The position numbers and the translations under genes are program-made. This document shows positions 41,811 through 48,744 of a stretch of DNA of 64,000 bases, in pieces. Location of the stretch: the NCBI GenBank assembly GCA_020354645.1, contig CP070652.1, positions 2,389,811 to 2,453,810 on the forward strand, read 5' to 3'. The notes below the pieces were generated by a model, which had not been told where the DNA came from, made no database searches, and saw nothing but the letters and a program-made list of their open reading frames with translations. Each line of letters opens with the position of its first letter. Positions within the stretch are counted from its first letter, which is position 1. Origin of the DNA: Deltaproteobacteria bacterium (lineage in GTDB: Bacteria > Desulfobacterota > Desulfobacteria > Desulfobacterales > G020354645).

Positions 41811-41998
41811 ACTAAATAATCACTTTTTCTGCAGTTGACAAACCACAAACTGAGAACATATTATTGCAATATTGAGAAAACTTCTCCCCAGGGAATTTTG
41901 TCTAACACTGTTATCGACCAAATAGGTTATTTCATTCTTCATCAGCGTGTCTTGTCATCACAAATCGTGTCCCCAAATCATATCAAGGGGTGTGTTCC

Positions 41999-42982
41999 GT
42001 GAAAAACGTTTGCATGTCAATAATTATTGCCATTTTACTTGCCTTTTGGGTGTCTGCCCACGCCGATTATAACGCCGAAGATACGCTAGAAGCGGTTCTT
42101 AAAATACGGGCCACAGTTCCAGACAATGCCTATACGGCTGGCTCGCTCGGAACGGTACGGGAGGGAAACGGCATCGTCATTGATTCGAAGGGCCATATTT
42201 TAACGATAGGTTATCTTATTCTAGAAGCCGAAACCATAGAAGTCTATTCCCCCAAAGGTCATCCGGTAAAAGCAACCTTTGTTGGTTATGACCATAAAAC
42301 CGGCTTTGGTCTATTGCGGGCAAAGGAGCCTCTCAAGGTTGCGCCGATGAAACTCGGGCGGTCTTCAACCGTCGGCGAAGGGGACCCGGTTCTGATCGTC
42401 AGCCATGGGGGATCAGATTCTGTTCAAGGTGCCCATGTTGTTGCCCGCAGGGAGTTTACAGGCTATTGGGAATATCTTCTTGAAGATGCACTTTATGTTT
42501 CCCCACCGCATCCGAATTATGGCGGCGCTGCCCTCATCGGGCGCGATGGCCAACTGTTGGGTATCGGGTCCATTTTTACCCAGATCATGGTTCCTGAATT
42601 CGGTGTGATCCCTTGCAATATGTTTGTTCCAATCGACCGCCTGAAACCGATACTGACCGACCTAATTTCCATCGGACGCGCCCATGATCCGCCCCAGCCC
42701 TGGCTGGGTTTGCATGTGGATGAATCCCATGGACGCGTCATTGTCATTCGGGTTTCCGCTGAAGGTCCCGCCGCGCGCGCGGGCCTCAATTCCGGCGATA
42801 TTATTCTTACAGTGAACCAAAGCGCAGTGAAGGGAGTTGCTGATTTTTACCGTAAGGTCTGGGCTCTTGGCAGAGCAGGGGTAGAGGTGCCTTTGAGCAT
42901 TCTCCAGGGCACTCGAATTCGTGATGTAAAGGTTCGCTCTGGCGATCGTTATGAATTACTGAGACTTACTCCCAGGCGCTAA
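41999..42982 (+). CDS. HtrA/DegP-like pseudoprotease with PDZ domain
   Basis: About 327 residues. A signal peptide (residues 1-22, ending SAHA) sends it to the periplasm. Residues 45-215 are a trypsin-like HtrA domain and 230-315 a PDZ domain (PWLGLHVD, GPAARAGLNSGDIILTVN). All three catalytic residues appear replaced: histidine by Y72 (ILTIGYLI where HtrA has LTNNHVV), aspartate by G102 (KTGFGLLRA for TDLALLK), and serine by Y174 (PNYGGAAL for GNSGGAL). It can hardly be a protease and may bind or chaperone exported proteins. GTG 41999 is preferred since AAGGGG lies 8 bases upstream; GTG 41990 is the alternative. A MITE lies upstream. Confidence 0.85.
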   Translation: MKNVCMSIIIAILLAFWVSAHADYNAEDTLEAVLKIRATVPDNAYTAGSLGTVREGNGIVIDSKGHILTIGYLILEAETIEVYSPKGHPVKATFVGYDHKTGFGLLRAKEPLKVAPMKLGRSSTVGEGDPVLIVSHGGSDSVQGAHVVARREFTGYWEYLLEDALYVSPPHPNYGGAALIGRDGQLLGIGSIFTQIMVPEFGVIPCNMFVPIDRLKPILTDLISIGRAHDPPQPWLGLHVDESHGRVIVIRVSAEGPAARAGLNSGDIILTVNQSAVKGVADFYRKVWALGRAGVEVPLSILQGTRIRDVKVRSGDRYELLRLTPRR

Positions 42983-43178
42983 ACAAGGTCTCGGTATTTC
43001 CGGGAAATACAAATAAATTTCCCTTTTTGACAGCCGGGCCTGGAACGGGTTCTCCTTTCTACTATCATTGGTTTACAGCGAGGCGCTTAAATATTTCGGA
43101 TACCTCGCGATACTAAATAGTTGTAATTCATTCTTCATTTTGGTTATGCACAATTGAGGGAATATTACAAACGCAGGC

Positions 43179-45573: not shown

Positions 45574-45636
45574 CCTTCAGGGGGCCTGTATTTATTCACA
45601 GAATCGACGACCGGCAACACCTGGGGAGTGGCTGCT

Positions 45637-45996
45637 ATGACAGATAATACAAATTTCGGCTCAGATTCCTTCACGAAGGCTTGTCAGAAAATCTTGGCAG
45701 AGCACCCGACAGCAATTGGAGTGGCTTATAAAGGGTTGGATTGCGGTTGCGCGCTGATCTGTGGTGTTTCTGCCAAAGGTGACCCCATCGGATCATTGAT
45801 TTACGTCTCGGGGCAGCCGGCCCCAAAAGGTCAAAGGGCGACGATATGTCTGAAGTGTAAAAAAAATAACGGATTAAACCGGGTAGTCAAGGAGGGCATC
45901 AGCTGGCCGGGCGATGAGAGTGAACTGCCTGATATAGAATTGAGACTTTTAATCGGCAGGAAAGTTTTTGGCCCCTATTATGTGGAACCGCAGTAA
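45637..45996 (+). CDS. Small cysteine-containing soluble protein, unknown
   Basis: About 119 residues. Cysteines cluster in LDCGCALICGV (near residue 47) and CLKCKKNNG (near 80), suggesting a metal or cluster site, with a DIELRLLIGRKVFGPYYV strand region at the end. GGGAG lies about 8 bases before ATG 45637. Its stop codon overlaps the left direct repeat of MITE copy A2, so the element inserted exactly at the end of the gene. No family recognised. Confidence 0.65.
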   Translation: MTDNTNFGSDSFTKACQKILAEHPTAIGVAYKGLDCGCALICGVSAKGDPIGSLIYVSGQPAPKGQRATICLKCKKNNGLNRVVKEGISWPGDESELPDIELRLLIGRKVFGPYYVEPQ

Positions 45997-47173: not shown

Positions 47174-47376
47174 CCTTTTTTTGTAAACTTGCTTTATCAA
47201 GCTGTCAATTCGCAATTTGTCTGTCGAGAATTTTTGTCCTCCATTGATTAAATTCGAGTAAATCTATATAATACTTTGATTAATAGCCAAATATTTCCTG
47301 GCAACAGACTGGCATTGAAATAAAGAAATTTTTTGTGAGCGGTTTAAGCAATAAATTAATTTTGAAAAGTATCCCA

Positions 47377-48744
47377 ATGAAAAAACTTAAATTCGCAACG
47401 CCCTGCGGGGCTGCCTGGGTTTTAGCTATTTTTCTATCTTTGACTCCTGTTAAAGGTTTTGCTTACACGCCCGTATGGATTCAGACCCATATGGACGGAA
47501 CCCTCCAAATTCCGGGAGTTTACCATGGTGTAAGCTTTGCGACGTACAAGGGGAATGCGCCGGATTATGCAGCCATGAGGCTTGCCAAAGATCGTGCTTT
47601 AGACGAACTTTGCTACGGACTTTCGGTTTCTTTAAAATCACAATTTGAGAATCGGATTGTGGAAAAAGGAGATTACGAAGAACAGCAGATTTCATCCTCC
47701 CTATTCGTTAGCACCCGAAAAGTCTTATCCGGCGTTGAGGAAAAGGAAAATTGGCGTGATTCCAAACAGCATCGGTACTGGGTGATGGTGACCATCGACA
47801 AAATAAATGCTGATCGACAATTACAGGAACAGAAATTCATCAATGAAGTTGTTGATCGATTGGAAAACAAACAGGAAGAGATCCTAAAAGGAATAAAGAA
47901 GATATCATTGTTACTGAATCAGAATATGAAACTTTATGCAGATCGGATGCAGCATTTCGAGAAACTGCTTGTGACAATTGATAAAAAGGTCAGTGCCGCG
48001 GGTGCTGAGACCCAAAATGAGTATGCCTACATCCAGGAAGAAATCAAAAAGCTTGAGCAGAACCGGCGGAAACAGTCTGAACGCATGGAGAGCATACAAC
48101 ACGTTCAGGGTCAACAACTAGCGGAACTCATGTATCAGAATAAAATGCTGCAGGATCTTTTAAGTCAAATCTCCGGCAAAATACAGCAGGATTATTTTCT
48201 AGCTCTCACCGATGACGATGTAAAGCGCAAAGAAACTACCTCAAAACTGTGGGTGGAAATAAAGCCCCAAAAAGGGCAGGGTGCAGATTACTATTCAGGT
48301 GAAAAAATCCGTTTTCGCGTGCGGGCATCCAGAGGGTGTTATATCAAAGTGATCTATCTCACTTCGTTGGAAAAAAATCGTTCTAATGAAAGAAGAATGA
48401 ATATTCTTCTTTTCCCAAACGAACACGACCGAGACAACTGGATCCAGGCCGGTGAAACCAAGGTCATCGGAAAGCATGGCGAACTTGAGATCCAACCACC
48501 ATTCGGTAAAGATGTCATTACGGTGGTTGCCTCTGAAAAACAGTTTACGGACGTTGAAGAGAATCTGAAGCAGGCCGCGGGCACTTATTATTCGATAGTT
48601 ACCGGAAACACGCGCGATGCCATCCGGGTCCGCGGCATGGGTGTGGTTACGCCCGCCACAAGTGCGGATACTGGATCTGGGCATCTCTCTGTTTCCGGCA
48701 CCGTCGCCACCGACACCTGTTTCATCGTCAGCCATTCGAGGTAA
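47377..48744 (+). CDS. Exported protein with coiled coil and DUF4384 domain
   Basis: About 455 residues. A signal peptide (KLKFATPCGAAWVLAIFLSL) is followed by a domain like the N-terminal part of LPP20-type proteins (RLAKDRALDELCYGLSVSLKS), then a long coiled coil (about 150-280), and a beta-sandwich of DUF4384 type (WVEIKPQKGQGADYYSGEKI, YIKVIYLTS, LLFPNEHDRDN, TVVASEKQF). DUF4384 occurs in exported proteins near peptidases and kinases but has no defined activity. ATG 47377 gives a normal signal peptide; GTG 47335 would lengthen it by 14. A MITE follows 100 bases downstream. Confidence 0.75.
   Translation: MKKLKFATPCGAAWVLAIFLSLTPVKGFAYTPVWIQTHMDGTLQIPGVYHGVSFATYKGNAPDYAAMRLAKDRALDELCYGLSVSLKSQFENRIVEKGDYEEQQISSSLFVSTRKVLSGVEEKENWRDSKQHRYWVMVTIDKINADRQLQEQKFINEVVDRLENKQEEILKGIKKISLLLNQNMKLYADRMQHFEKLLVTIDKKVSAAGAETQNEYAYIQEEIKKLEQNRRKQSERMESIQHVQGQQLAELMYQNKMLQDLLSQISGKIQQDYFLALTDDDVKRKETTSKLWVEIKPQKGQGADYYSGEKIRFRVRASRGCYIKVIYLTSLEKNRSNERRMNILLFPNEHDRDNWIQAGETKVIGKHGELEIQPPFGKDVITVVASEKQFTDVEENLKQAAGTYYSIVTGNTRDAIRVRGMGVVTPATSADTGSGHLSVSGTVATDTCFIVSHSR

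Follow-up and report, generated by a model that had tools for sequence, protein, structure and literature searches.

DegP, DegQ and DegS are exported HtrA proteases in which a trypsin-like domain is followed by PDZ. HtrA scaffolds with altered catalytic sites are known from MamO, a metal-binding, HtrA-derived pseudoprotease of magnetosomes by which MamE is activated (PMC4794232), and from plant Deg7 (AtDeg7), whose inactive protease domain takes part in trimerisation (PMC3473262). The window, the whole 64,000-nucleotide stretch of DNA analysed, encodes a 327-amino-acid protein with one trypsin-like domain, and the family to which it belongs shares with DegP, DegQ and DegS the fold, the domain order, probable export and the LT(x)2[H/Y] and GG(x)L motif frames. 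The family differs from these proteases in lacking the triad His, Asp and Ser, in having a WEY strand, one PDZ domain and an invariant helix of the FYRKVW type, and in being only 20-24% identical to them. MamO is its nearest described analogue. Both are HtrA-derived, with a degenerate triad, an aromatic residue in loop L1 and a residue other than Gly at 193, whereas the family has neither a conserved His pair for metal nor a TauE-like domain and keeps a single PDZ domain. Deg7 likewise has an HtrA domain whose mutated triad was kept in evolution, but there the inactive domain shares one chain with an active one and with four PDZs, whereas the protein studied here is stand-alone and bacterial.

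The full-text literature searched, which mostly excluded subscription papers, holds no description of such a family, and no NCBIfam model covers it. The window protein scores 78.9 bits with the HtrA model TIGR02037 (cut-off 416), and all its other NCBIfam matches are also far under their cut-offs. We conclude that it belongs to a real and conserved, apparently undescribed family of HtrA pseudoproteases. Members with an annotation bear the PGAP-style label 'S1C family serine protease', and a wrong protease assignment is therefore probably present in many genomes.

The gene, its surroundings and its fold

The reading frame had been described as intact, and it is open from 41999 to 42982. The features of the gene, its flanks and its terminal domains are as follows:

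41999..42982, + strand: HtrA pseudoprotease gene, 327 amino acids, intact open frame with GTG start; Trypsin_2 and PDZ_2, HtrA fold
41985..41990, + strand: AAGGGG, a ribosome-binding-site-like sequence 8 nucleotides 5' of the GTG at 41999
41835..41864, + strand: promoter-like site TTGACA-18-TATTAT, matching the consensus at 11 of 12 positions, which is not proof
43002..43023, + strand: terminator-like hairpin, then TTTTT, directly 3' of the stop; the hairpin count in the scan was not above that of shuffles
41999..42064, + strand: putative signal-peptide-like N terminus MKNVCMSIIIAILLAFWVSAHA with an AxA-type end, called from a hydrophobic core score of 3.08 rather than by a dedicated predictor
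42695..42937, + strand: PDZ domain (Pfam PDZ_2, and conservation) with the kept carboxylate-loop motif PWLG and the conserved helix DFYRKVW

A second in-frame GTG at 41990 was also listed by the ORF caller. Flanked by these promoter-like and terminator-like elements, the gene probably forms a single-gene transcript, although such consensus matches are not proof; an Rfam scan of the window gave no match. The neighbouring genes encode a cupin and LarE-like and MnmA-like proteins, the last two named by reading their sequences. Elsewhere in the window, 47335-48744 (+) encodes a 469-amino-acid protein with a C-terminal DUF4384 and no Pfam match in the rest. A 122-amino-acid protein without a Pfam match is encoded at 45628-45996 (+), 2.6 kb from the pseudoprotease gene, and a counterpart with 67% identity to it lies directly beside the second pseudoprotease copy of the genome (L002 915-1343, -); at the third copy and in the remaining loci no counterpart was found. 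No gene neighbour is conserved across the family loci, and two annotated plasmid loci share none. With no partner gene conserved, the ligand and role discussed below are ones that we infer.

The protease fold and PDZ domain, which the preliminary description had called recognisable, are evident from several sides. Pfam matches to Trypsin_2 (3e-14) and PDZ_2 (4.7e-12) are both above cut-off, and an AlphaFold model built with 59 family sequences has a mean pLDDT of 91.8. The top Foldseek matches of this model are DegQ, DegP, Deg1 and HtrA1 (20-24% identity), and the structures of DegP, DegQ and DegS are matched by sequence as well as by fold. Pfam, model and Foldseek thus agree on the trypsin-like double barrel followed by PDZ that defines the HtrA/Deg fold superfamily. 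A signal-peptide-like core is present in 86% of family members, and the hydrophobic core score suggests that the protein is probably exported.

Catalytic columns and selection

We compared 124 non-redundant family members with 34 active HtrAs, all 34 of which keep H, D and S; column counts were made with hmmalign. The following positions bear on catalysis:

42212..42214, + strand: Y72, catalytic His column; Y in 113 and F in 11 of 124 relatives
42302..42304, + strand: G102, catalytic Asp column; G in 124 of 124 relatives
42518..42520, + strand: Y174, Asn column preceding the catalytic Ser; F, W or Y in 123 of 124 relatives, N in 34 of 34 active HtrAs
42521..42523, + strand: G175, catalytic Ser column; G in 74, S in 27, A in 13, N in 8 and others in 2 of 124 relatives
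42467..42475, + strand: WEY157-159, family signature; invariant in 124 of 124

The His motif reads ILTNNHVV in active HtrAs and ILTIGYLI here, and the Asp motif reads DPxTDLALIK and DHKTGFGLLR, respectively. Both align gap-free in MAFFT and hhalign, and these motifs place Y72 at H and G102 at D, as had been proposed. The third replacement, given earlier as Ser to Tyr at 174, is one position off. The Ser motif is NPGNSGGPL in active HtrAs and HPNYGGAAL here, and in the MAFFT, hmmalign and hhalign alignments alike Y174 faces the Asn of GNSGG, while G175 takes the place of the Ser. The doubt whether the true triad lies elsewhere is thus justified to the extent that the Ser column lies one position beyond the one given, and unjustified in that this column holds Gly. 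Complete loss of the triad still holds for the window protein, in which Ser is absent under either assignment. With Y72, G102 and G175 it lacks the triad of the HtrA/Deg serine proteases (S1C), and the sequence gives solid grounds to consider catalysis lost. The Ser column is G, S, A, N, P or T across the 124 members, against S in all 34 active HtrAs, and the 27 relatives that keep Ser do so with neither His nor Asp in the other two columns.

Could the gene be decaying and without function? The loss of all three catalytic residues and a patchy distribution (4 of the 117 genomes sampled from the source genome's class) would fit such a view. Against it, the same replacements are found in all relatives, dN/dS is 0.14, and the source genome carries three intact copies, the other two 67 and 62% identical to the window copy. 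Decay is already refuted for the family and hardly credible here, and a pseudogene was rejected because the replacements are common to all 124 members at that dN/dS. In a simple Nei-Gojobori count on close pairs, the median dN/dS was 0.137; over the first 70% of codons, which roughly cover what was once the protease domain, it was 0.155. Ratios lie far below 1 in that domain and in the PDZ alike. These values point clearly to purifying selection on the family. Nor is this a single decayed copy among orthologs with intact triads, since all 124 members lack His and Asp. Together with their grouping in one clade and the low dN/dS, this supports well the suggestion, made earlier from the window alone, of selection for a non-proteolytic role. 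It is almost certain, as far as sequence can tell, that the protein is under selection and does not work as an HtrA serine protease.

A further possibility is that the trypsin-like domain has acquired a new catalytic activity on other residues. The alignment offers invariant polar residues (R54, T69, D98, E158, Y159, N207 and R285), along with invariant P234, W235 and G237. However, none of the invariant residues is a His, Cys, Ser or Lys, the Ser column varies, and T69 and D98 are conserved in active HtrAs too; we therefore regard a new activity as improbable. Metal binding as in MamO is very improbable. The family does show MamO-like changes, in that its triad is degenerate, loop L1 carries a bulky aromatic residue and position 193 is not Gly (PMC4794232), but no column of the family alignment holds His at 90% or more, so that the di-His metal site of MamO has no counterpart among conserved columns, and the MamO model NF040961 gave weak matches in 6 of 59 members (best 5e-5), the window protein not among them. 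Membership of MamO was itself rejected: NF040961 gave no match to the window protein at E<=1 or at 0.001, and the family is separate by profile. In the source genome, neither MamE nor any magnetosome gene was found over cut-off.

Distribution and a sister clan

Related stretches were found in 226 cases in other GTDB genomes, and the best 80 of the 226, which were fetched, come from records named Desulfobacterales/Deltaproteobacteria, Alpha-, Beta- and Gammaproteobacteria. The family is present in 41 of 190 genomes sampled from the class of one alphaproteobacterial member, often in two copies. Azospirillum brasilense Sp7 carries a copy on its plasmid ABSP7_p1. In another class of the same phylum, 135 of 145 sampled genomes have a sister clan with the motifs LTVNY and NPGLGGGPL (loci L182-L200 and L201-L230, class of G195); among the 95 genomes of best quality in that sample the count is 93. 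Being near-universal in one class, it points to a core function, of which the literature searched holds no description. As 92% of its members have no hydrophobic signal-like core, export of the sister clan seems unlikely. Genes like pabB and pabC, named by reading their sequences, adjoin about 15 of its loci in divergent orientation.

Three loci (L232 in G175:C227, L204 and L218) have frames of 780-1012 amino acids that end in the sister-clan domain. A Deg7-like fusion to an active HtrA was considered from these frames and rejected, as the upstream part has no HtrA sequence and no second HtrA-like stretch was found on reading. The upstream parts look like antisense read-through of GC-rich DNA, and such frames are a trap for automatic gene calling.

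In a tree built without the catalytic columns, the family forms one clade and the sister clan another. Both clans group with an HtrA-like protein, L133 (1501-2391, -), in one clade apart from the active HtrAs (SH-aLRT support 100). L133 branches near the base, although the same tree gives no firm base order among the exported family, the sister clan and L133. It keeps His and Ser and has Gly in place of Asp, and is the only relative found to have lost Asp alone. A relative with only one triad residue lost makes the order of loss testable, and a stepwise loss in which Asp went first would fit this single sequence. It is a tentative reading, somewhat short of even odds, that all of these form an undescribed HtrA pseudoprotease superfamily, with an exported clan marked by aromatic replacements, an apparently cytosolic near-universal clan, a core PDZ-ligand function and stepwise, Asp-first loss.

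Proposed role

Sequence entropy changed in opposite directions in different parts of the protein. Compared with active HtrAs, the family shows higher entropy in the Ser loop (1.25 vs 0.27 bits) and lower entropy in the WEY strand (0.86 vs 1.37) and the groove helix of the PDZ domain (1.05 vs 2.39). The relaxed Ser loop and the tightened strand and helix, with the PDZ carboxylate loop retained (W235 and G237 invariant), lead us to infer that the protein binds a conserved PDZ ligand. Ligand binding, a chaperone or decoy function and partnership with HtrA are all candidate roles. This conservation pattern would favour specific ligand binding, although conservation of the PDZ helix could also serve folding or oligomer contacts. 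We propose that the gene product, as a member of an old HtrA pseudoprotease family, would be exported to the periplasm, cut nothing and serve as a binding module. A single conserved type of peptide, probably a C terminus, would be recognised by the PDZ groove, and the WEY strand together with the changed face where the active site once lay would offer a second surface for contacts, so that the protein would sense, hold or relay a specific partner rather than degrade substrates. Weighing against this proposal are the Ser kept in the Ser column by 27 of 124 relatives and the finding of no conserved gene neighbour. We give it as a whole a probability of about 0.55, while the role of specific PDZ-ligand binder or adaptor, taken by itself, has roughly an even chance.

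Active HtrAs that keep H, D and S are also encoded in the source genome (L004-L006), and the role of the pseudoprotease is therefore probably separate from bulk proteolysis. Their presence also allows the protein to be seen as a regulatory subunit or decoy of active HtrAs in the same cell, acting in mixed trimers or by competition for substrates or activating peptides, for which the activation of MamE by MamO (PMC4794232) and the inactive domain of AtDeg7 in trimerisation (PMC3473262) are precedents. Such an arrangement is a serious contender, though less likely than the binding module: neither linkage to an active HtrA gene nor fusion was found at the loci studied, identity to active HtrAs is only 20-30%, and the sister clan, seemingly not exported, would not meet a periplasmic HtrA. 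The family is a widespread natural case of the HtrA scaffold being kept for a non-cutting purpose.
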